This document shows, piece by piece, positions 1 to 12,299 of a stretch of 12,299 bases of DNA. Location: contig NZ_NCSM01000016.1 in NCBI RefSeq assembly GCF_002224125.1, positions 1-12,299 of the forward strand. The letters run 5' to 3'. Position 1 is the first letter of the stretch. Every line of letters begins with the position of its first letter. The translations under genes and the position numbers were made by a program. This DNA is from Streptomyces sp. NBS 14/10. Lineage in GTDB: Bacteria > Actinomycetota > Actinomycetes > Streptomycetales > Streptomycetaceae. Under the pieces are notes generated by a model. It searched no databases, was not told the origin of the DNA, and saw only the letters and a program-made list of their open reading frames with translations.

Positions 1-3000
1 GAGATCGCCGAGGACCTGGTGAGGCTGCTGGGGGAGATCACACCGATCGGCACGGGGGTCGCGTTCTACTCGGCCATGACCGGCCACCGGGTGGAGACCG
101 CCACGCTGGACGCGGCGTACTGGGTGGAGAACCTGCGCCGTCAGGTCCGGTTCGCCACCGCGATCGAGGCCGTGCTGGCCGACGGATACCGCGTGCTCGT
201 CGAGGCCGGTCCGCACCCGGTGTTGAGCGTGGGTATTCAGGAGACCGCTCAGGCGGGCGAGGTCGCGGTGGCCACCGTGCCGACCCTGCAGCGGGATCAG
301 GGCGGTCCGGCGCAGCTGGCCCGGGCCCTGGCCCATGCCTTCGCGGCCGGGCTGCCGGTGGACTGGAGGGCCTGGTACGGCGTGGACACCACGGCCGACA
401 CCCAGGCCCCGGCCGTCCTCGATCTGCCCACCTACCCCTTCCAGCGCCGGCACTACTGGATCGACCCCGCCACCCTCGGCGGCTCCGGAGACGCCCAGAG
501 CCTCGGCCTCGCCTCCGCCGACCACCCGCTGCTCGGCGCCGCCGTCCGGGTCGCCGAGAGCGGGGAGGCGGTGCTCACGGGCCTGATCTCCACCGCCGGA
601 CACTCCTGGCTGGCCGACCACGCCGTGGCCGGGGCGGTGTTCCTGCCCGGCACGGCGTTCGTCGACCTCGCCGTACGCGCCGGGGACGAGGTCGGCTGCG
701 ACCGCGTCGAGGAACTGGTCCTGGAAGCCCCCCTGATCCTCCCCGAGGAGGGGGCGCTGCAACTCCAGCTCGTCGTCTCGGCACCAGGCCAGGACGGCAG
801 CCGCGCCTTCACCGTCCACGCGCGCGCCCACGGCGATAGCGGTGGCGCTGCCGACCGGCCGTGGACCCGGCATGCGAGCGGCACCCTCACCACGGGCGCC
901 CGGCCCGACGACTTCGACTTCACCCAGTGGCCGCCGGCCGACGCCGAGCCGCTGTCCCTGGACGGTCTCTACACCGGACTGGCCGAGGCGGGCTACGGCT
1001 ACGGCCCCGCGTTCCGCGGTCTGAAGGCCGCCTGGCGCCGCGGGGACGAAGTGTTCGCCGAGGCCGCTCTGCCCGAGGAACTTCGGGAGGAGGCCGGGCG
1101 TTTCGGGCTGCACCCCGCCCTGCTGGACGCCGCGCTGCAAGCCGGTGGCATCGGCCAGGGCGGTACGCCCGACGGGCAGATGCTGCTCCCGTTCACCTGG
1201 AGCGGTGTGTCGCTGTACGCCACCGGGGCCGCCGCGCTGCGCGTCCGTATGGTGCCGAACGCGACGGCCGACGGCGTGTCGTTGAGCGTCGCGGACCCCT
1301 CGGGCCGCCAGGTCGCGTCCGCCGAGGCGGTGGTCTCCCGCCCGGTCTCCCTGGAGCAGCTGCGCCGCAGCGACGACGCCGGGCTCGACTCGCTGTACCG
1401 CGTCGAGTGGATCTCCGCCGAGCCCAAGCCCGGAGTGCTCGCCGAAAGCGCCTGGGAGGTGCTGGGCGACGACGGCCTCGGCATCGCCGACGCGCTGGAA
1501 CGGGCCGGACATTCCGTCCGTACCGCGCCGGACCTCGCGGAGGTGGCGCGCGCCGTCGACGACGGCACACCGCCCGCCGAGCTGGTGGTGCTGCCCTGTG
1601 CGCCCCTCGCCGGCGCGGTGACCGAAGCCGACCCCGGGCTCGCCGCCGCGGTCCACGACGAGACCGCGCGCCTTCTCGGGGTTGTCCAACACTGGCTCGC
1701 GGACGAGCGGTTCGCCGACTCCCGGCTGGCGGTGGTGACCCGCGGCGCCCAGTCGACCGGCGGTGACGAGGGGGTCACCGACCTGGTGCACTCTGCCCTG
1801 TGGGGCCTGGTGCGCTCCGCGCAGCTGGAGAACATCGACCGGCTCCTGCTGGTCGACCTGGAAGCCGTCGACCTTGAAGCCGCCGACGAGAGCGACCCCA
1901 CCGACCTGCTGCCCAGCGCCCTCGCCGTCGCGCTCGGATCGGGCGAGCCGCAGGTGGCGGTGCGCCACGGCGCGGTGGTCGTCCCGCGGCTGGCCCGTAT
2001 CGGCCAGGACACCGACCCCACCCCGCCGGACCTGCCGGACCTGCCCGGCCACGCCCTGGACACCGAGGGCACCGTGCTGATCACCGGTGGCACCGGCACG
2101 ATCGGCGGCGTGCTCGCCCGCCACCTGATCACCACCCATGGCGTACGCCATCTGCTGCTGACGAGCCGTCGGGGTGGCGACGCGCCCGGCGCGGCGGCGC
2201 TCCGCGACGAACTGGCCGCGCTGGGCGCCGAGGTCACGGTCGCCGCCTGCGACGCCGCCGACCGTGACGCGCTGGCGGCGCTGCTGGCGGGCATCCCCGC
2301 CGAACACCCGCTGACCGGTGTCGTGCACGCCGCCGGTGTGACCGACGACGGCACCATCCCGTCCCTCACGGCCGAGCAGCTGCACAAGGTGCTGCGGCCC
2401 AAGGTGGACGCGGCGGTCAATCTGCACCAGCTGACCCGCGCGGCGGACCTCGCCACCTTCGTCCTGTTCTCCTCGACGGGCGGCGTGGCCGGTGTCGCGG
2501 GCCAGGGCAACTACGCGTCGTCGAACGCCTTCCTCGACGCGCTCGCCCAGGACCGCCGGGCCGCCGGGCTCCCCGGCCAGGCGCTGTCCTGGGGCCACTG
2601 GGAGCAGAGCAGCGGCATCACCGGCGCCCTCGCCGAGCGCGATATCGCCAGGATGGAGCGTTCCGGTATCCGGGCGATGTCCTCCGACCAGGGCCTGGCC
2701 CTGTTCGACGCGGCCGTGCGGCGGCCCGAGAGCCTGCTGGTGCCCGTCCGCCTCGACGCGGCGGCGCTACGGGACCTCGCGGGCGCCAACGTCCTGCCCC
2801 GTATCCTCAGCGGCCTGGTACGGGGGGCACCGGTCCGCCGCACCGCCGCGGGGCACCCCATACACGGGGACGCCTGGGACACCTCGTCGATGGCGGAGCG
2901 CCTGGCGGGCCTCTCGGCGGTCGAGCAGAGCCGTACGCTGCTGGAGCTGGTACGCCGCAACGTGGCGGCAGTGCTCGGGATCGGCGACGTACTCGGGGTC

Positions 3001-3402
3001 GATCCGGCGCGGCCGTTCAAGGAGATCGGGTTCGACTCGCTGACCGCGGTAGAGCTGCGCAACCGGCTCAGCCAGGCCACCGATATCAAGCTGCCCTCCA
3101 CGCTCATCTTCGACATCCCCACCCCGGCACTGCTCGCCGAGCATCTGCGGGATCAGCTGGTGTCCGAGGGGCTGAGCGGGTCGGAGGCGCTGATTCAGGA
3201 ACTGGACCGGCTGGAGGACCACGTCGATCTGCTCGCCGACACCGAGGAGCGGGACGCGGTGACGGCCCGGCTCGAAGCGCTGCTGGCGCGCTGCCGCCAG
3301 CAGCCCGCGGCGGCGGAGGGCAACGGCGTCGCGGAACGGCTCCAGGCGGCCTCGGCCGATGAAGTGCTGCAATTCATTGACTCCCAGCTGGGAAGGGCCT
3401 GA
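1..3402 (+). CDS. Modular type I PKS, 3' part: (AT)-DH-KR-ACP-docking
   Basis: The 5' end is missing: the frame is open from base 1 and already encodes AT sequence, so the GTG at 19 is not the start. In-window length is 1133 residues. Residues 1-90 are the AT C-terminus (YWVENLRRQVRF, GPHPVL). A post-AT linker ends in LPTYPFQRRHYW near 142. DH spans about 165-440, with catalytic His207 in HAVAGAVFLP, YGPAF, and Asp376 in LLDAALQ. The KR has a structural half (about 460-680) and a catalytic half (about 690-900) with the NADPH motif GGTGTIGG (696-703), Lys801, Ser825 and Tyr838. Asp783 in VTDD and no Trp eight residues before Tyr838 indicate a B-type KR. The ACP has phosphopantetheine Ser1013 in GFDSL. 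The tail (about 1060-1133) is helical and ends in DEVLQFIDSQLGRA, a class 1 C-terminal docking element. Expected output is an alpha,beta-unsaturated thioester, probably trans, passed to the next protein. AT specificity motifs lie outside the window, so the extender unit is unknown. Confidence 0.97.
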   Translation, partial: EIAEDLVRLLGEITPIGTGVAFYSAMTGHRVETATLDAAYWVENLRRQVRFATAIEAVLADGYRVLVEAGPHPVLSVGIQETAQAGEVAVATVPTLQRDQGGPAQLARALAHAFAAGLPVDWRAWYGVDTTADTQAPAVLDLPTYPFQRRHYWIDPATLGGSGDAQSLGLASADHPLLGAAVRVAESGEAVLTGLISTAGHSWLADHAVAGAVFLPGTAFVDLAVRAGDEVGCDRVEELVLEAPLILPEEGALQLQLVVSAPGQDGSRAFTVHARAHGDSGGAADRPWTRHASGTLTTGARPDDFDFTQWPPADAEPLSLDGLYTGLAEAGYGYGPAFRGLKAAWRRGDEVFAEAALPEELREEAGRFGLHPALLDAALQAGGIGQGGTPDGQMLLPFTWSGVSLYATGAAALRVRMVPNATADGVSLSVADPSGRQVASAEAVVSRPVSLEQLRRSDDAGLDSLYRVEWISAEPKPGVLAESAWEVLGDDGLGIADALERAGHSVRTAPDLAEVARAVDDGTPPAELVVLPCAPLAGAVTEADPGLAAAVHDETARLLGVVQHWLADERFADSRLAVVTRGAQSTGGDEGVTDLVHSALWGLVRSAQLENIDRLLLVDLEAVDLEAADESDPTDLLPSALAVALGSGEPQVAVRHGAVVVPRLARIGQDTDPTPPDLPDLPGHALDTEGTVLITGGTGTIGGVLARHLITTHGVRHLLLTSRRGGDAPGAAALRDELAALGAEVTVAACDAADRDALAALLAGIPAEHPLTGVVHAAGVTDDGTIPSLTAEQLHKVLRPKVDAAVNLHQLTRAADLATFVLFSSTGGVAGVAGQGNYASSNAFLDALAQDRRAAGLPGQALSWGHWEQSSGITGALAERDIARMERSGIRAMSSDQGLALFDAAVRRPESLLVPVRLDAAALRDLAGANVLPRILSGLVRGAPVRRTAAGHPIHGDAWDTSSMAERLAGLSAVEQSRTLLELVRRNVAAVLGIGDVLGVDPARPFKEIGFDSLTAVELRNRLSQATDIKLPSTLIFDIPTPALLAEHLRDQLVSEGLSGSEALIQELDRLEDHVDLLADTEERDAVTARLEALLARCRQQPAAAEGNGVAERLQAASADEVLQFIDSQLGRA
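3391..3397 (+). promoter_or_regulatory. Ribosome binding site for the second PKS gene
   Basis: GGAAGGG lies 12 bases before the ATG at 3410 and inside the last codons of the upstream gene. The spacing is a little long, but it supports ATG 3410 over an in-frame ATG at 3359. The 3359 start would add 17 residues unlike a docking domain and overlap the upstream gene. The protein from 3410 begins MANQEQLVDYLKRV, a recognisable PKS N-terminal docking helix. The 7-base gap between genes suggests co-transcription and possibly translational coupling. Confidence 0.6.
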
Positions 3403-3409
3403 AACCGCC

Positions 3410-6400
3410 ATGGCGAACCAGGAACAGCTGGTCGACTACCTCAAGCGAGTGGCGACCGATCTGCATGACACTCAGCAGCGCCTCCGCGAGGTGGAGGCCC
3501 GGGACCGCCAGCCGGTCGCGATCGTCGGGATGGCCTGCCGGTTCCCCGGGGGGACGGACACCCCGGAGGCCCTGTGGGACCTGGTGTCCGAGGGGCGCGA
3601 TGTGGTCTCCCCGATGCCGGACGACCGGGGCTGGGACCCCGGTCTGTTCAACGACTCGGGCGAGACCGGCACCAGCTATGTGCGCGAGGGTGGATTCGTC
3701 CAGGACATCGCGGACTTCGACGCCGACTTCTTCGACATCTCGCCGCGCGAGGCCCTGGCGATGGACCCGCAGCAGCGGCTGCTGCTGGAGACCGCGTGGG
3801 AGGCCGTCGAGCGCGCCCGTATCGATGTGACGTCGCTGCGCGGCAGCAAGACCGGTGTGTTCGTCGGCGGCAGCACCGTGTACTACGCGGGCAGCGGCGC
3901 CGACGCGCCGCAGGACGTGGCCGGGTACATGGCCACCGGGCTGGCCGCGAGTTCGATGTCGGGCCGTATCTCGTACACCCTCGGCCTGGAGGGCCCCGCC
4001 TTCACGGTGGACACCGCCTGCTCCTCGTCCGGGGTGGCGCTGCATCTGGCGGTGCAGTCGCTGCGCAAGGGCGAGTCGTCGCTGGCGCTGGCCGGCGGGG
4101 TGTGTGTGATGGCGACGCCCGGCACGTTCCTGGAGTTCAGCAAGTTGAAGGGGCTCGCCGGCGACGGCCGGTGCAAGGCGTACGCGGCGGCGGCCGACGG
4201 CTTCGGCCCCGGCGAGGGCGTGGGTGTGCTGCTGGTGGAGCGGCTGGCGGACGCCGAACGCCTCGGACATCCGGTGCTGGCCGTGATCCGCGGCTCCGCG
4301 ATCAACCAGGACGGCGCCTCCAACGGTCTGACCGCGCCCCACGGCCCCGCCCAGGAGCGCGTCATCCGCGCCGCGCTGGCCGACGCCCAGCTGTCCGCCC
4401 GGGACATCGACGTGGTGGAGGGGCATGGCACCGGCACCTCGCTGGGCGACCCCATCGAGGCGCAGGCGCTGATCGCCGCCTACGGCAGGAGGCGCGCCGA
4501 GGGCAGCCCGCTGTGGCTGGGCTCGGTCAAGTCCAACATCGGGCACACCCAGGCCGCCGCCGGCATGGCGGGGGTGATCAAGATGGTGTACGCGCTCCAG
4601 CACGGCGTTCTGCCGCGCACCCTGCACGTGGACGAGCCCACCACCCAGGTGGACTGGTCCGAGGGCACCGTGAAGGTGCTGACCGAGGCGCTGCCGTGGC
4701 CCGAGACCGGCGGACCGCGCCGGGCCGGCGTGTCGTCGTTCGGCATGAGCGGCACCAACACGCACGTCATCCTCGAACAGGCCCCGCCGGCCGACGAGCC
4801 CGCCCCCACCGCCGAGTTGCCGGTCGTCCCCTGGCTGGTGTCCGGGCGTGGCGAGGCGGCGCTGCGCGCCCAGGCCGCCCGGCTGCGGGACTTCCTCACC
4901 GAGCGGCCGGAGGCGAGCCCGACGAGCGTCGGTTTCGCCCTCGCCCATGCGCGCGCCGCGCAGTCGCACCGCGCCGCCGTGGTCGCCGCCGACCGCGACG
5001 CGCTTCTGGCCGGGCTGGCCTCGCTGGCCGAGGGCACCCCCTCAGGACAGGTGGTCACAGGCGTGCCGAGCCCCGGCGCGACGGTGTTCGTCTTCCCCGG
5101 CCAGGGCTCGCAGTGGGTCGGCATGGCCCTCGCCCTGGCCGACGCCTCCCCGGTGTTCGCCGAACACTTCCGCCGCTGCTCGGCCGCGGTGGAGCGGCAC
5201 ACCGACTACACCGTGGAGTCGGTGCTGCGGGCCGAGCCGGGCGCGCCCTCCCTGGAGCGGGTCGACGTCGTCCAGCCCGTGCTGTGGGTGGTCATGGTGG
5301 CCCTGGCCGAGCTGTGGCGTTCGTACGGTGTGGAGCCCGCGGCCGTGGTGGGCCACTCCCAGGGCGAGATCGCGGCGGCCTGCGTGGCGGGCGTGCTGTC
5401 CGTGGAGGACGCGGCCCGCGTCGTGGTGCTGCGCTCCCAGGCGCTGCCCGAACTGTCCGGCCGCGGCGGTATGGCCTCCGTACCGCAGCCCGTACAGCAG
5501 GTCGAGAAACACCTGGAGCGCTGGGACGGCCGGCTGAGCGTGGCCGCCGTCAACGGCCCCTCCTCGACCGTGGCGTCCGGCGACGCCGACGCCCTGGAGG
5601 AAATGCTGGCGGGCTACGAGGCCGACGGGGTGCGCGCCCGGCGTGTCCCGGTGGACTACGCCTCGCACTGCGCCCATGTCGACGCGCTGAACGACCGGCT
5701 GGCCGAGGCGTTCGCGGACATCGAGCCGAAGGCGGGCTCCGTCCCGCTGTACTCGACCGTCACCGGGCGGCGCATCGACGGCACCGCCATGGACGCCACG
5801 TACTGGTTCACCAACCTCCGTCAGCAGGTGAAGTTCCAGCAGGCCACCGAGGCGCTGCTGGAGGACGGGCACAGCGCGTTCATCGAATGCAGCCCGCATC
5901 CGGTCCTCGCCATCGGCACCCAGGAGACCATCGACGAGGCGGGCGTGGGCGCCACGGCGCTCGGCACCCTGCGCCGGGACGAGGGCGGCTGGGACCGCTT
6001 CCTCCTCGCGCTGGCCCAGGCCCATGTCCACGGTGTCGCGGTGGACTGGGGCCGGGTGTTCCCGGAGGGGACCGGCCCCGTCGACCTGCCGACCTACGCC
6101 TTCCAGCGCCGCCGTTACTGGCTGGACGCGAGTGGCAGCGGAGCCGGGGACCCCACCCGGCTCGGCCTCGCCCCGGCCGACCACCCGCTGCTGGGCGCCG
6201 TCACCGTACTCGCCGAGGGCGACGAGGTGGTGCTGACCGGCCGGCTCGGCCTGGACACCCATCCATGGCTGGCCGACCACGCGGTGGCCGGTGCGGTGCT
6301 GGTGCCCGGCGCCGTGTTCGTGGAGCTGGCCGTGCGGGCCGGGGACGAGGTGGGCTGCGACCGCGTCGAGGAAATGGTGCTGGCCAGCCCGCTGGTGCTC

Positions 6401-9400
6401 GCCGACGAGGGCGGCACCGACCTGCAACTCGTGGTGGGCGGGCCCGATGAGGACGGCCGCCGTCCCTTGAGCGCGTACGCCCGCCCGGCCGGGACCGACC
6501 AGCCGTGGGTGCGCCACGTCAGCGGCACACTGGCGCCCGGCGGCGGGGCCGCCGAGCCGTTCGACCTCGCCCAGTGGCCGCCGGAGGGCGCTCAGCCCGT
6601 GTCCGTGGACGGCTGCTACGACCAGCTCGCCGAGGGCGGCTACCGCTACGGCCCCGCCTTCCGCGGCCTGCGCGCCGTCTACCGGCGCGATACGGAGGTG
6701 TTCGCCGAGGTCGTCCTGGCGGAGGAACAGCGCGGGCTCGCCGCCGCGTTCGGCATCCACCCCGCCCTGCTGGACGCCGCGCTGCACGCCAGCGGGCTGA
6801 CCGCGGTCCGCGGCGACACCGAGGGCCGGATGGCGCTGCCGTTCGCCTGGAACGGCGTGTCGCTGGCCGCCTCCGGCGCCGAGCTGCTGCGCGTCAGGCT
6901 CGCGCCGGTCGGCGACGACGGCATGTCCGTCCACGCCACCGACGCCTCGGGACACCCGGTGATCTCGATCGAGGCCCTGGTGACCCGGCCGTTCACGGCC
7001 GGGCAACTTCCGAGTGGCGGCGAGGACACGCGCGACGGCCTCTTCCGCGTGTCGTACGACCCTCTGACCGACGCCGAGCCGGGCACAGGCACCGACGACT
7101 GGGCCGCGGTCGCCACCGGCACCTCGCTCAGCCGCTACGGGGTGCGCCGCTACGCCGACTTCGACGCGCTCGCCGCCGCGATGGACGGCGGTCTGCCCGT
7201 CCCGCCGGTCATCGTGCTGCCCTGCGATCCGGCGCCGCACGACCCGGACCTCGCCGAGGCGGTGCGCCGCCGGCTGGGCGAGGTGCTGCACACCGTGCAG
7301 CGCTGGCTGGCCGACGACCGGTTCACCGGCGCCCGGCTGGCGGTGGTCACCCGCGGCGCGGTCGCGGCCACCGACGGCGAGGACGTCACCGACCTCGTAC
7401 ACGCCCCCGTATGGGGTCTGATCCGCTCCGCGCAGTCCGAACACCCCGACCGGCTGGTCCTGGTCGACACCGACGTACACGAACTGCCGCAGGCCGTCGC
7501 CGCCGCGGTGGCCGCGGGCGAGAAGCAGATCGTCGTCCGGGACGGGACCGTACGCGCGTCCCGCCTGGTCCCCGCGGCGTCCGGCGGCGCCCTGACCCTC
7601 CCGGACGCCCCCCACTGGCGGCTGGACATCACCGGCCCCGCCACCCTGGACAACCTGGACCTGGTGGCGGCGGACGAACCCCAGCAGCTCGCCCCCGGCC
7701 ACATCCGCGTCCAGGTCCGCGCCGCGGGCGTCAACTTCCGGGATGTGCTGATCGCGCTCGGCATGTACCCGGGCGAGGCGGTGTTCCGGGGCAGCGAGGG
7801 CGCGGGCGTGGTGCTCGACGTGGCTGAGGACGTCACCTCGGTGGCCGTCGGCGACCGGGTGATGGGCATGTTCCAGGGGGCCTTCGCGGCCACCGCCGTG
7901 GCCGACGCCCGCTCCGTCGTGCCCATCCCGCCGGGCTGGACCGACGAGCAGGCGGCGGCCGTGCCCATCGCGTTCGTCACCGCCTGGTACGGGCTGGTGG
8001 ACCTCGCCGGCCTCAAGGCGGGCGAGTCGGTCCTCATCCACGCGGCAGCAGGCGGCGTCGGCATGGCCGCCGTACAGATCGCCCGCCACCTGGGCGCGGA
8101 GGTGTACGCCACCGCCAGCCCCGGCAAACACGCCGTACTGGAGGCGATGGGCATCGACGAGGCCCACCGCGCCTCCTCCCGCGACCTGGACTTCGAGGAC
8201 GCCTTCCGCACCGCCACCGGCGGCCGCGGCGTCGACGTCGTCCTCAACAGCCTCACCGGCGCGGCCACCGATGCCTCGCTGCGCCTGCTGACCGGGGACG
8301 GCCGGTTCGTGGAGCTGGGCCTGACCGACGTCCGCGGCCCCGAGCAACTGGCCGAGACCAGCCCCGGTGCCCACTACCGCGTCCTCGACCTGGGGGCGCC
8401 GGGAGAGGACGGCATCGGCCGCATGCTGACCGAAATCCTTGGCCAGTTCGAACGCGACGAGCTGGCCCACCCCCCGGTGCGCGCCTACGACATCCGCCGG
8501 GCGCGCGACGCGTTCCGCCTCATCAGCCGGGCCGCCCACGTCGGGAAGATCGTGCTGACCCTGCCGCGCACCCTCGACCCGGACGGTACGGTCCTGGTCA
8601 CCGGCGGCACCGGCACCCTGGGCGGCCTGGTCGCCCGCCACCTGGTCACCCGGCACGGCGTACGGCGGCTGCTGCTGACCAGCCGCCGCGGCCCGCAGGC
8701 CCCCGGCGCCACCGAGCTGCGCGACGAACTGGCCGCGCTGGGCGCCACCGCGACCATCGAAGCCTGCGACGTCGGCGACCGCGCGCAGCTCGCCGAGGCG
8801 CTGGCCGGTGTCCCCGACGCCCATCCGCTGACCGGTGTGGTGCACTGCGCCGGAGTCCTCGACGACGGCATGGTCGACGCGCTGACCACCGAGCAACTGG
8901 CCCGGGTCCTGCGGCCGAAGGCCGACGCCGCACTGCATCTGCACGAGCTCACCAAGGACGCCGACCTGGCGCTGTTCGTCCTGTTCTCCTCCGTCGTCGG
9001 GGTGTACGGCAACCCCTCGCAGGCCAACTACGCGGCCGCCAGTACCTTCCTGGACGCCCTGGCCCAGCACCGCCAGGCCAACGGGCTGCCCTGCCAGTCG
9101 CTGGCCTGGGGCATGTGGGAGGAGACCAGCACGCTCACCGGTGAGCTGGACGACGGCACCCTCCAGCGCATCCGGCAGGCCGGTATGGAGCCGCTGCCCA
9201 CCGAGCGGGCCCTGGCGCTGTTCGACCGCTCGCACGCCGCGGGTGACGCGCTGCTGGTCCCGATCCGGCAGTCCGGACAGGGCCCCGGCGGCGGCCCGGC
9301 CGCCGGCCGCACCAGGGCGCGGCGGGTGGCCGACAGCGGCGCGGCGAGTACGTCGGGGCCGTCGCTGGCCGAACGGCTCACCGCGCTGCCGGAGGCCGAT

Positions 9401-9892
9401 CGCGAGGGCTATGTGCTGGAGGCGGTGTGCGCGCATATGGCGGCCGTCCTCGGCCACGGTTCGGCCGACGAGATCGCCCACGACCGTACGTTCAAGGAGC
9501 TGGGCTTCGACTCGCTGACCGCCGTCGAGCTGCGCAACCGGCTCTCGGCCGCGACCGGACTGCGGCTGCCCGCCACGCTCGTCTTCGACTTCGCCAACCC
9601 GCTGGCGCTCGCCCAGCATCTGCGCGAGCAGATCGCCCCGCCCACCGACCCCTTCGAGAGCCGGGTCCGCCAGGTGCTGGCCGCCATCCCGCTGCGGCGG
9701 CTGGAGCAGTCCGGGCTGCTGGAGGCCCTGCTGCGGTTGGGTGAGGGAGGGGACACGGACGCGGAGGCGGACGACACGGTGTCCGAGCCGGCCCCGGCCG
9801 AAGACGACACCGAGAGCACTGAGAGTGCCGATATCGCCTCGATGGACCTCGACGAACTGGTGGACATGGCCCTGCGCAACGGCGAGTCCTGA
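3410..9892 (+). CDS. Single-module type I PKS, KS-AT(methylmalonyl)-DH-ER-KR-ACP
   Basis: A complete 2160-residue module. Residues 1-32 form an N-terminal docking coiled coil (LVDYLKRVATDLHDTQQRL). KS (35-460) has Cys204 in DTACSSS, His339 in HGTGT and His379 in NIGH, all intact. AT (about 560-860) has GQGSQ, Ser650 in GHSQG, RVDVVQ (617-622) and YASH (750-753), the signatures of methylmalonyl-CoA specificity. DH has His957 in HAVAGAVLVP and Asp1122 in LLDAALH. ER (about 1415-1722) has the NADPH loop GGVG (1548-1551) and Tyr1453 in LGMY, a residue linked to 2S methyl configuration. KR has LDD 1817-1819, Lys1837, Ser1861 and Tyr1874, with Ser1878 where Asn is usual. ACP has Ser2035 in GFDSL. 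The C-terminus (about 2080-2160) has an acidic linker and ends in DLDELVDMALRNGES, a docking helix. Expected chemistry is one elongation with methylmalonyl-CoA and full reduction to a saturated alpha-methyl acyl chain. It probably receives the chain from the upstream protein and passes it to the downstream one. I noticed no in-frame TTA codon. Confidence 0.98.
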   Translation: MANQEQLVDYLKRVATDLHDTQQRLREVEARDRQPVAIVGMACRFPGGTDTPEALWDLVSEGRDVVSPMPDDRGWDPGLFNDSGETGTSYVREGGFVQDIADFDADFFDISPREALAMDPQQRLLLETAWEAVERARIDVTSLRGSKTGVFVGGSTVYYAGSGADAPQDVAGYMATGLAASSMSGRISYTLGLEGPAFTVDTACSSSGVALHLAVQSLRKGESSLALAGGVCVMATPGTFLEFSKLKGLAGDGRCKAYAAAADGFGPGEGVGVLLVERLADAERLGHPVLAVIRGSAINQDGASNGLTAPHGPAQERVIRAALADAQLSARDIDVVEGHGTGTSLGDPIEAQALIAAYGRRRAEGSPLWLGSVKSNIGHTQAAAGMAGVIKMVYALQHGVLPRTLHVDEPTTQVDWSEGTVKVLTEALPWPETGGPRRAGVSSFGMSGTNTHVILEQAPPADEPAPTAELPVVPWLVSGRGEAALRAQAARLRDFLTERPEASPTSVGFALAHARAAQSHRAAVVAADRDALLAGLASLAEGTPSGQVVTGVPSPGATVFVFPGQGSQWVGMALALADASPVFAEHFRRCSAAVERHTDYTVESVLRAEPGAPSLERVDVVQPVLWVVMVALAELWRSYGVEPAAVVGHSQGEIAAACVAGVLSVEDAARVVVLRSQALPELSGRGGMASVPQPVQQVEKHLERWDGRLSVAAVNGPSSTVASGDADALEEMLAGYEADGVRARRVPVDYASHCAHVDALNDRLAEAFADIEPKAGSVPLYSTVTGRRIDGTAMDATYWFTNLRQQVKFQQATEALLEDGHSAFIECSPHPVLAIGTQETIDEAGVGATALGTLRRDEGGWDRFLLALAQAHVHGVAVDWGRVFPEGTGPVDLPTYAFQRRRYWLDASGSGAGDPTRLGLAPADHPLLGAVTVLAEGDEVVLTGRLGLDTHPWLADHAVAGAVLVPGAVFVELAVRAGDEVGCDRVEEMVLASPLVLADEGGTDLQLVVGGPDEDGRRPLSAYARPAGTDQPWVRHVSGTLAPGGGAAEPFDLAQWPPEGAQPVSVDGCYDQLAEGGYRYGPAFRGLRAVYRRDTEVFAEVVLAEEQRGLAAAFGIHPALLDAALHASGLTAVRGDTEGRMALPFAWNGVSLAASGAELLRVRLAPVGDDGMSVHATDASGHPVISIEALVTRPFTAGQLPSGGEDTRDGLFRVSYDPLTDAEPGTGTDDWAAVATGTSLSRYGVRRYADFDALAAAMDGGLPVPPVIVLPCDPAPHDPDLAEAVRRRLGEVLHTVQRWLADDRFTGARLAVVTRGAVAATDGEDVTDLVHAPVWGLIRSAQSEHPDRLVLVDTDVHELPQAVAAAVAAGEKQIVVRDGTVRASRLVPAASGGALTLPDAPHWRLDITGPATLDNLDLVAADEPQQLAPGHIRVQVRAAGVNFRDVLIALGMYPGEAVFRGSEGAGVVLDVAEDVTSVAVGDRVMGMFQGAFAATAVADARSVVPIPPGWTDEQAAAVPIAFVTAWYGLVDLAGLKAGESVLIHAAAGGVGMAAVQIARHLGAEVYATASPGKHAVLEAMGIDEAHRASSRDLDFEDAFRTATGGRGVDVVLNSLTGAATDASLRLLTGDGRFVELGLTDVRGPEQLAETSPGAHYRVLDLGAPGEDGIGRMLTEILGQFERDELAHPPVRAYDIRRARDAFRLISRAAHVGKIVLTLPRTLDPDGTVLVTGGTGTLGGLVARHLVTRHGVRRLLLTSRRGPQAPGATELRDELAALGATATIEACDVGDRAQLAEALAGVPDAHPLTGVVHCAGVLDDGMVDALTTEQLARVLRPKADAALHLHELTKDADLALFVLFSSVVGVYGNPSQANYAAASTFLDALAQHRQANGLPCQSLAWGMWEETSTLTGELDDGTLQRIRQAGMEPLPTERALALFDRSHAAGDALLVPIRQSGQGPGGGPAAGRTRARRVADSGAASTSGPSLAERLTALPEADREGYVLEAVCAHMAAVLGHGSADEIAHDRTFKELGFDSLTAVELRNRLSAATGLRLPATLVFDFANPLALAQHLREQIAPPTDPFESRVRQVLAAIPLRRLEQSGLLEALLRLGEGGDTDAEADDTVSEPAPAEDDTESTESADIASMDLDELVDMALRNGES

Positions 9893-9943
9893 CATGCGCC
9901 GCCCGCTGTGCCATCCCTTGTGCCGTCCCCTCGGAGGAATGTC
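9893..9943 (+). other. Short intergenic spacer between second and third PKS genes
   Basis: This 51-base spacer contains no open frame worth calling, no convincing inverted repeat followed by a T tract, and no clear promoter elements. Its only recognisable signal is the ribosome binding site near its 3' end. It is longer than the 7-base gap before the second gene but short enough that read-through transcription from the upstream PKS genes is the simplest model. Confidence 0.6.
9933..9938 (+). promoter_or_regulatory. Ribosome binding site for the third PKS gene
   Basis: GGAGGA sits five bases upstream of the ATG at 9944, a near-ideal Shine-Dalgarno match and spacing. It fixes the start of the third PKS gene. 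The translated N-terminus from that ATG is a heptad-like docking helix, which agrees. The strong site suggests that the third protein, despite its damaged catalytic motifs, is still translated. Confidence 0.8.
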
Positions 9944-12299
9944 ATGACCGTGGCCGACGACAAGATCGTCGAAGCCCTGCGCGCCTCGCTCCAGGAGGCC
10001 GAGCGGCTGCGCAAGGAGAACCAGCAGCTGCGCGCGGCCCCCCGGGAACCGATCGCGATCGTCGGGATGGCCTGCCGCTACCCCGGTGGTGTCGAGTCCC
10101 CGGACGACCTGTGGACCCTGCTGGCCGAGGAACGCGACGCCGTCTGCCCCTTCCCCGACGACCGAGGGTGGGACCTGGACGGCATGTGCGGTCCTGACGC
10201 CCACCCGGCGGCGCGCAGCGCGGTGGCCGAGGGCGGATTCCTCCCCGGCGCAGCCGCGTTCGACCCGGCGCCCTTCGGGATCTCGGCGGGCGAGGCGTCG
10301 GTGATGGATCCCCAGCAGCGGCTGCTGCTGGAGACCTCGTGGGAGGCGTTCGAACGGGCCGGCATCGACCCGCGGTCGGTCGCCGGCCGGCGCTACGGCG
10401 TGTTCATGGGCACCACCGGCCAGGACTACACCCCACATCTGAGGGACGTCCCCGACGAACTGCTCGGCCATATCGCCTCCGGCGGTTCGAGCGCCGTGCT
10501 CTCCGGCCGTATCGCCCTGACCTTCGGCCTCGAAGGGCCCACGGCCACCTTGGACACCGCGTGTTCCGGCTCCCTGGTGGCGCTGCACCTGGCCTGTCAG
10601 GCGCTGCGCGGCGGTGAGTGTTCCCTGGCGCTGGCCGGCGGTGTCACCGTGATGTCCAGCCCGGACACCTTCATCGGATCGGCCCGGGGGATCGGGCTGC
10701 CCGTCGCCAGGCGCTGCCGCTCGTTCGCCGACGGGGCCGACGGGATCGCCTTCGCCGAGGGGGCGGGGGTGCTGCTGCTGGAGCGGCTGTCCGTCGCCCG
10801 CGCCCAGGGGCACCCCGTGTTCGCCGTCGTCCGTGGCAGCGCGATCGGCCAGGAAGGCGCCACCAACGGCGCGAGCGCGTCGAACGGGCCCGCTCAACGG
10901 CGGCTGATCAGAAAGACGTTGGACGCCTCGGGGCTTGCGCCGCACGAGGTCGACGCGGTCGACGGCCAGGGCACCGGCGGCCTGCTCAGCGACGCGGTCG
11001 AGGCACAGGCCCTGGCGGCCGTCTATGGCGAGGGTCGCCCCGCCGACCGGCCGCTGCTGCTGGGGGCGGTGAAGTCCAACCTCGGCCATACGCAGGGGGC
11101 CAGCGGTATCGCCGGAGTGATCAAGATGGTCCAGGCCATGCGCTACGGCATGGTGCCGCGCACCCTGCACACCGAGGCGCCCTCCCCGCATATCCCCTGG
11201 GACGAGGGCCGGATCCGGCTGGTCACCGACGCCACGCCCTGGCCCGGGACGGACCGGCCACGCAGGGCCGGGGTGTCCGCGTTCGGCTTCGGCGGTACGG
11301 ACGCCCATGTGATCCTGGAACAGGCACCGGCCGACGACCCCCCGGCGCCGGAGGCGGCGGCAGGGCAGGCGGGAGGCGTGACGCTCTGGCCGGTCTCCGG
11401 CTGCGACCCCGCCGCGCTGCGTGCCCAGGCGGCCCGGCTGCTTGACCATATCGAGCGGCGCCCCGGGCTCCGCCCGGCCGATCTCGGCCTGTCGCTGGCG
11501 ACATCCCGCGCCGCGCTGCGCCACCGCGCGGTGGTCGTCGGCGAGAGCCGCCGGGACCTGCTGGACGGCCTGCGGGCGCTGGCCGACGCGACATCCGCGC
11601 CCCATGTCGTACACGGCGAACCGGTCCGCCGCCACCGCCTCGTCGTCCTGCTCACCGGCCACGCCCTCGCCCCCGGCACCGGAAAGCAGCTGTACGACGC
11701 CTTCCCGGCGTTCGCCGCCGCCTTCGACACGGTCTGCGCGGCGCTCGACGCCCACCTGGGGTTCCCGGCCCGTGACGCGATGCTCACCGAGGCCGACACC
11801 GACGCCGGCCCCGCCCCGGCCGCAGGTCTCGAATCGGCCAGGGCCTTCGCGGTCCAGGTGGCGCTGTTCCGCCTGCTGGAGTCGTGGGGGGTGCGGCCCG
11901 GGACCGTACGCGGCTACGGGGTCGGCCGGCTCGCCGAGGAACACCTCAGCGGGAAGCAGTCACTGCCCGAGGCCTGCGCGGCGCTGACCGGTCCGTACGA
12001 CGGGCCGGCACAGGCGCCGGGGGGTGTCGCCGAGCAGGTCCGTGCCTCGGCCAAGGACGGCACGGTCCACCTCGAACTGGGCGGCCATGAGGTGGCCGAA
12101 CTCCTCGACGGCACGGGGCCGCACGCCGTGGCCGCGCTGCGGCCCGGGGTGGCCGAGGCGACCGCCGTGGCCACCGCCCTCGCCCATTTGTACGCCCGTG
12201 GCACCGCGGTGAACTGGGCCGCGGTGTTCGCCGGAACCGACGCGCGGCGCGTCGACCTGCCCACGTACGCCTTTCAGCGCGGACGGTACTGGCAGGCCG
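9944..12299 (+). CDS. Type I PKS, 5' part, with defective KS and collapsed AT
   Basis: The 3' end is missing; 785 codons are in the window with no stop. Residues 1-33 (IVEALRASLQEAERLRKEN) are a class 1-like N-terminal docking coiled coil. KS spans 36-460, with Cys207 in DTACSGS, Lys377 and His382 in KSNLGH. HGTGT reads QGTGG (Gln342 for His) and the following GDPIEA reads SDAVEA. A KS-AT linker follows (about 461-565). The AT-like region starts near 566: GQG is GHA, and the nucleophile motif GHSxG is GYGVG (657-661, Gly659 for Ser). About 130 residues after it are missing relative to the AT of the upstream gene. The post-AT linker DLPTYAFQRGRYW (771-783) is intact. What remains (VALFRLLESWGVRP) resembles malonyl-type ATs. 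Condensation and extender loading by this module look impossible by the usual route. A DH-like or other processing domain normally follows such a linker but is not visible. Inferred role: chain transfer or tailoring without elongation. Confidence 0.95.
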   Translation, partial: MTVADDKIVEALRASLQEAERLRKENQQLRAAPREPIAIVGMACRYPGGVESPDDLWTLLAEERDAVCPFPDDRGWDLDGMCGPDAHPAARSAVAEGGFLPGAAAFDPAPFGISAGEASVMDPQQRLLLETSWEAFERAGIDPRSVAGRRYGVFMGTTGQDYTPHLRDVPDELLGHIASGGSSAVLSGRIALTFGLEGPTATLDTACSGSLVALHLACQALRGGECSLALAGGVTVMSSPDTFIGSARGIGLPVARRCRSFADGADGIAFAEGAGVLLLERLSVARAQGHPVFAVVRGSAIGQEGATNGASASNGPAQRRLIRKTLDASGLAPHEVDAVDGQGTGGLLSDAVEAQALAAVYGEGRPADRPLLLGAVKSNLGHTQGASGIAGVIKMVQAMRYGMVPRTLHTEAPSPHIPWDEGRIRLVTDATPWPGTDRPRRAGVSAFGFGGTDAHVILEQAPADDPPAPEAAAGQAGGVTLWPVSGCDPAALRAQAARLLDHIERRPGLRPADLGLSLATSRAALRHRAVVVGESRRDLLDGLRALADATSAPHVVHGEPVRRHRLVVLLTGHALAPGTGKQLYDAFPAFAAAFDTVCAALDAHLGFPARDAMLTEADTDAGPAPAAGLESARAFAVQVALFRLLESWGVRPGTVRGYGVGRLAEEHLSGKQSLPEACAALTGPYDGPAQAPGGVAEQVRASAKDGTVHLELGGHEVAELLDGTGPHAVAALRPGVAEATAVATALAHLYARGTAVNWAAVFAGTDARRVDLPTYAFQRGRYWQA
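10049..11323 (+). other. Ketosynthase domain lacking the HGTGT histidine
   Basis: This segment encodes the KS fold from PIAIVGMACRYPGG to HVILEQ. The acylation site Cys (codon 10562-10564), Lys (11072-11074) and second His (11087-11089) are present. The first catalytic His is replaced by Gln, codon CAG at 10967-10969. Other usually conserved positions also drift: INQDG is IGQEG, RCKAF is RCRSF and GTNAH is GTDAH. In thiolase-fold KS enzymes the first His supports decarboxylation of the extender, while acyl transfer to Cys can occur without it. The domain is therefore expected to accept a chain but not elongate it. This is distinct from loading-module KSQ domains, where the Cys itself is replaced by Gln. 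Confidence 0.88.
11639..12226 (+). other. Acyltransferase remnant with in-frame internal loss
   Basis: Compared with the intact AT encoded at about 5087-6000, spacing from the first glycine motif to the nucleophile elbow is conserved (87 against 86 residues). Spacing from the elbow to the LPTYAF linker is 113 against 243 residues. The loss therefore falls after the elbow, near LTGPYDG (about 11983-12003). It removes the small subdomain with the YASH/HAFH motif and its catalytic His. The nucleophile codon at 11918-11920 is GGG (Gly), not Ser. The C-terminal AT strand (VHLELGGHEV) is still recognisable. No frameshift or stop is seen, so this is a maintained remnant rather than a simple pseudogene. 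Confidence 0.88.

Follow-up and report, generated by a model that had tools for sequence, protein, structure and literature searches.

In this work, we have analysed a stretch of 12,299 nucleotides from Streptomyces sp. NBS 14/10 (the window; bases 1-12299 of the 247,882-base contig C36, in a genome of 12.1 Mb), and in particular the polyketide synthase (PKS) gene that occupies its last part (9944..12299, plus strand). This gene codes for a ketosynthase (KS) followed by a truncated, inactive acyltransferase region (AT0), and its product is very probably the KSX protein of a nanchangmycin-type polyether PKS, which would take over the completed chain from the last PKS module and deliver it to a discrete acyl carrier protein (ACP), called ACPX, without adding carbon. 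The reading frame starts with the ATG at 9944, four bases after a ribosome-binding-like, Shine-Dalgarno-like GGAGGAA (9933..9939), and stays open up to the window end; the final 12 codons and the stop are expected within a run of Ns that follows. An N-terminal docking helix (residues 5-31; 9956..10036) is followed by the KS domain (residues 35-460; 10046..11323), a KS-AT linker (residues 461-561; 11324..11626) and the AT0 region with its post-AT linker (residues 562-785; 11627..12298), all on the plus strand. The Pfam matches are to docking (5-31), KS (35-284 and 294-410) and KS C-terminal extension (413-532) models, and only positions 13-112 of the 319 of the AT model are covered, at 23.3 bits, which is under the cut-off of 32.7. 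Third-position GC is 0.909 in the docking helix and KS and 0.911 in AT0. The strong ribosome binding site, the docking helix, the unbroken frame and the G/C-rich third positions on which the initial annotation of this DNA had relied are therefore all present. The structure was predicted with a mean pLDDT of 92.2 from an alignment of 101 rows, and of 37.3 from 18 close rows. The close database matches that carry an organism name are from Streptomyces.

The acyl-accepting residue, Cys207 (DTACS; 10562..10564), and His382 of the KSNLGH motif (11087..11089) are present in all 18 aligned members of the family. The position of the HGTGT His is occupied by Gln342 (DGQGTGG; 10967..10969), as it is in 17 of the 18 members, P0013 having His. 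This His is needed for decarboxylative condensation, and its loss is described as a mark of non-elongating KS domains (PMC4661987), so that condensation by this KS, which the initial annotation had called defective, is indeed unlikely. The AT had been called dead, and we agree: GYGVG is found where the nucleophile motif GHSxG is expected (11912..11926), with loss of the Ser nucleophile, and the YASH segment of active ATs is absent. Compared with two active ATs of the same cluster, AT0 lacks both the Arg and the YASH segments, and in its alignment to a DEBS KS-AT chain about 105 residues of that chain are skipped after the AT core, ahead of the post-AT linker. With a truncated, dead AT and without the HGTGT His, the protein would load no extender and most likely adds no carbon, as had been proposed.

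The retention of Cys207 and His382, and the full Cys-His-His set seen in 12 of 12 other stand-alone KSX proteins considered below, could be taken to mean that the KS still elongates, another AT loading ACPX with an extender and one condensation adding a ketide. We regard this as highly improbable, given the replacement of the condensation His in nearly every member of the family and a module count on the (cut) contig that fits a nanchangmycin-like plan with no extension by KSX. In having lost the HGTGT His and kept the Cys, the protein resembles the KS0 domains of trans-AT PKSs; the assembly line is of another kind, since the modules of the cluster carry GHSxG ATs in cis. The composition of an elongation module, KS-AT-ACP with a working AT and an in-cis ACP, is not found in the protein either.

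Two database proteins resemble the family and enter none of our counts, their gene context not having been seen: P0073 (769 aa, HGTGT kept, GYAAG in the AT) and P0095 (HGSGT, KSNIGN, and GHAGG in the AT). The other catalytic His of the KS (KSNIGH) is Asn or Tyr in P0095, P0121, P0124, P0127 and P0149, the last of which still has GHSIG in its AT. The third KS motif also varies, with KPN for KSN in the KS at 71896 of contig C36 (minus strand; otherwise normal and elongating) and in the KSX proteins of genomes G298 and G073.

The window end at 12299 is a scaffold gap and not the biological end of the gene, as contig bases 12300-12341 are a 42-base run of Ns directly after it. The database protein P0001 is identical to the window protein at all but 2 of 785 residues, extends 12 residues further (AFDPIRVPSDGR) and ends at 797 aa; therefore the KSX stop would fall inside the N run. 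At least 17 further relatives, a lower bound taken from the best 120 of 2426 matches (7989 candidates scored), share 67-90% identity with the window protein where they align, and two of them have no N-terminus. All stop shortly past the post-AT linker, some with low-complexity tails, and their Pfam lists contain no ACP or KR (ketoreductase) among the matches listed. Because P0001 and the 17 relatives end without an ACP or KR, the predicted gene product is a stand-alone KS-AT0 protein and not a module.

The initial annotation had proposed a complete non-elongating module with an ACP of its own past the window, on which the chain would wait for a reaction such as cyclisation or tailoring. The gene does run into the gap, so that its own assembly alone does not show where it ends, and in mupirocin a KS0 and its ACP share one polypeptide. 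An in-cis ACP is nevertheless extremely improbable in view of where P0001 and the 17 relatives end, and we have rejected it; moreover, what comes after the gap is a gene on the opposite strand. Extension past 12299, which had been suggested as the way to find the remaining domains, leads through the N run to a minus-strand P450, the first gene beyond it, and then to a MonB-like gene, a MonCI-like gene and a discrete ACP, a separate gene about 4 kb downstream that is likely to be the carrier in question.

A search of the genus with the AT part gave a match in the own genome only (1 of 392). In a search at family level, 88 of 297 genomes matched at E<=1e-50, with scores above 203 bits only in the own genome and G433, and the remaining matches, at 203 bits or less, look like ordinary ATs. 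A contig search of the genomes gave six loci, two of which were kept as family members and four set aside (two actinomycete loci at 39-41% and two short matches at 31-35%).

Is the gene maintained by selection? We calculated dN/dS by the NG86 method for the window and its counterparts in S. sparsogenes and NRRL F-5123, obtaining 0.30-0.34 for the KS and 0.42-0.63 for AT0. The controls gave 0.20-0.25 for the KS and 0.29-0.30 for the AT of the downstream module, 0.24-0.32 for MonCI and 0.58-0.64 for the thioesterase. NG86 tends to underestimate dS at such a high third-position GC, and these dN/dS values are therefore probably upper values. We also built a codon-blind null, in which the observed changes between the window and a relative were moved to random sites of the same base in 200 shuffles. 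Amino-acid identity to S. sparsogenes was 0.785 as against 0.682 in the null (s.d., standard deviation, 0.0105; maximum 0.705 in the 200), and to NRRL F-5123 it was 0.712 as against 0.555 (maximum 0.588). The excess amounts to about 8-11 s.d. for the KS and 6-7 s.d. for AT0, which taken alone lies above all 200 shuffles in both pairs. These results support purifying selection on the KSX gene, as the initial annotation had supposed, although its argument from the lack of stops carries little weight at this GC: across the full length of the protein the shuffles yield means of only 2.4 and 2.6 stops, and some yield no stop at all. A pseudogene is accordingly rejected on amino-acid conservation and not on the lack of stops. 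That the protein is a vestige, or purely structural, with the chain reaching ACPX otherwise and the protein decaying or only bridging other proteins, might be read from the dN/dS of AT0, which is higher than that of the active AT of the same cluster. This is very unlikely, since the Cys is kept in every aligned member, the KS itself has a low dN/dS and both parts exceed the null by many s.d., and since AT0 does not exceed the thioesterase gene in dN/dS.

The genes past the gap give the protein its setting. A MonB-like epoxide hydrolase gene (open reading frame, ORF, 13493-14689 of the contig) is 75% identical to its S. sparsogenes copy, which matches MonBI,MonBII at 8.1e-70. It is followed by a flavoprotein (14785-16224) that appears to be a MonCI-like epoxidase (PDB match to MonCI at 1.7e-190; Lsd18/LasC at about 1e-139), by the discrete ACP of 113 aa that we propose as ACPX (16289-16630), and by an alpha/beta hydrolase that resembles the MonCII/NanE thioesterases (16704-17576), all on the plus strand. 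Because MonB-like and MonCI-like genes lie past the gap, the surrounding locus is, by its predicted gene content, a polyether cluster. A KS-AT-KR-ACP module (17578-22608, plus strand) comes next, and after it sugar genes and a glycosyltransferase. Several features expected of a polyether KSX, namely a cluster with MonCI- and MonB-type enzymes, the absence of an in-cis ACP, a KS Cys, and a discrete ACPX and a discrete thioesterase, are thus found here.

Upstream, on the plus strand, the window holds the end of the preceding PKS protein (1..3402; AT end, dehydratase (DH), KR and ACP, its KS lying off the contig) and protein 2 (3410..9892; KS-AT-DH-ER-KR-ACP, ER being enoylreductase), which we propose as the last elongation module and the chain donor. 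By Pfam, protein 2 has DH, ER and KR, while DH and KR are present in the preceding, cut module. These domains would suit a nanchangmycin-type 2-methyl, 4-methyl-4-ene acid end, in which case the last extension would be that of protein 2. On the strand opposite these PKS genes, a minus-strand open frame of 2300 aa at 5042-11944 has a first-position GC of 0.93 and is a shadow of the coding strand.

Counting KS domains by profile search (the short-motif mapping used for the other domains is rough and overlooks some DH, KR and ACP), the contig carries a KSQ loading module and 12 extension modules, of which the one at the contig start is incomplete, in 11 PKS ORFs if KSX and ACPX are counted. The endusamycin cluster, which is nanchangmycin-like, is described as performing 14 condensations by 15 modules in 11 PKS ORFs (PMC11348059), and our count would fit such a plan if two further modules lie off the contig. 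The nanchangmycin, endusamycin and lenoremycin clusters share with this one a MonCI/Lsd18-like epoxidase, an epoxide hydrolase, a NanE-like thioesterase, sugar genes and 11 PKS ORFs (PMC11348059), and the window cluster is likely to be of the same class, as judged by gene content.

We propose that the docking helix of KSX binds the C-terminus of protein 2, that the completed acyl chain moves from the protein 2 ACP to Cys207, and that the KS passes it to ACPX. There the epoxidase (MonCI-like) and the epoxide hydrolase (MonB-like) would make the ether rings, and the MonCII/NanE-like thioesterase would then release the product. The initial annotation had spoken of an off-pathway reaction. A step beyond elongation is likely, but it would be the ordinary end of a polyether pathway, in which transfer of the chain by a KSX to a discrete ACPX has been published. 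In monensin biosynthesis, MonKSX transfers the chain to MonACPX and adds no carbon (PMC3943991), MonCI binds MonACPX (PMC10560226), and MonCII and NanE release the products (PMC4147253). The monensin system resembles ours in its stand-alone KS-type transferase without an ACP, discrete ACPX, MonCI-type epoxidase, MonB-type epoxide hydrolase and separate thioesterase, and in a PKS described as having no terminal thioesterase domain (PMC3943991). The likeness to MonKSX is one of role and neighbours and not of length or active-site residues, the window clade having Gln for the HGTGT His. MonAIX, which we had considered as the monensin KSX, was rejected because it is called, with MonAX, a type II thioesterase (PMC4147253). 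The KS0 of mupirocin MmpE offers a second parallel, as a non-elongating KS that receives the chain from an ACP upstream and delivers it to a second ACP, the site of epoxidation, its Cys being essential in that system; it differs in belonging to a trans-AT system and in having the ACP and the oxidoreductase in the same protein as the KS (PMC7619045).

To see how widely the arrangement recurs, MonCI was searched across the genomes and found in 205 of 392 at E<=1e-90 (mostly at 43-52% identity among the rows listed). We then read 20 of these neighbourhoods (14-40 kb each), that of the own genome and those of the 19 genomes with the highest scores among the other 204. A stand-alone KS protein without an ACP was found in 13 of these 20, with a discrete ACPX-like ACP downstream in 12 of the 13, G073 being cut by the contig end before the AT part. 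The Ser of ACPX (GLSSL/GLTSL) is present in 12 of 12 aligned. The loci of S. sparsogenes and NRRL F-5123 have the same arrangement as the window. The 12 other stand-alone proteins, KS-AT0 or KS-AT0-KR0, also lie beside MonCI with MonB/MonCI neighbours, lack an in-cis ACP, keep the KS Cys and have ACPX downstream wherever the contig reaches. Ten of them, for which we have coined the label nigericin-type, differ in being about 1290-1400 aa long (two ORFs are longer, probably by upstream starts) and in having a KR match, with no ACP, in the one scanned. Because 11 of 11 readable non-window proteins have another residue for the AT Ser and lack the YASH segment, the predicted loss of the AT is common to window-type and other stand-alone KSX proteins. 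Loss of the condensation His is not: all 12 keep it, as against its replacement in the window type, and their KS lies on another branch.

In the KS tree the window-type KS form one clade (SH-aLRT 100), of which P0013, the sole window-type protein with the HGTGT His, is the first branch. They join the fused KS-AT0 of three genomes (support 93 and 95 in two trees), two of the fused rows being flagged as long branches. We hypothesize, with confidence evenly divided, that in the window clade a hand-off KS has turned into a one-way transacylase, the condensation His being lost, the AT cut to a scaffold and the KR and ACP gone, and that the KS-AT0-KR0 clusters with an intact Cys-His-His set are either an earlier stage of this path or a second case, reached by convergence, of a terminal module recruited for chain transfer.

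Several observations weigh against assigning the window protein to the polyether KSX group. The assignment is built on neighbourhood and anatomy, and the contig has its gap immediately 3΄ of the gene. The data neither establish nor reject a single clade with the nigericin-type KSX (approximately unbiased, AU, p 0.166; 0.391 with the fused ones). In three of the 20 neighbourhoods (G038, G306 and G309) the KS-AT0 is no separate protein but follows the last ACP within a PKS protein, and in four (G081, G032, G051 and G159) no KS of this kind was recognised in the 14-40 kb read. The docking pair, finally, has been judged by sequence type only: the KSX helix is unlike the seven other PKS N-termini listed on the contig, and the C-terminus of protein 2 (SMDLDELVDMALRNGES; 9839..9889, plus strand), equally odd among the nine C-termini seen there, may on these grounds be its partner. 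In the nanchangmycin PKS the N12-N13 interface is of the mixed class H1a-T1b (PMC9492657).

A KSX remains the reading we favour, and it is ordinary in kind, the role being already known; the detail of interest is the lost condensation His. With the acyl-binding Cys kept, this loss supports the view of such KSX proteins as pure transacylases. The odd KS-AT gene is then likely to act as the gate through which a polyether pathway passes from building the chain to closing its rings, and not to be a broken or skipped module. It may also serve, with its distinct docking pair, as a natural part for handing completed polyketides over to a stand-alone carrier.

Two further features were seen outside the window. 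An ORF of G306 (contig C223, 21169-29334 in joined position, minus strand) encodes the last PKS protein, whose C-terminal part reads ACP-KS-AT0 and then a MonB-like domain, all in one polypeptide. On contig C36, two adjacent regulator genes at 88141-89763 are presumably SARP-like. As a pair they may be compared with nanR1 and nanR2 of nanchangmycin (PMC10972967).
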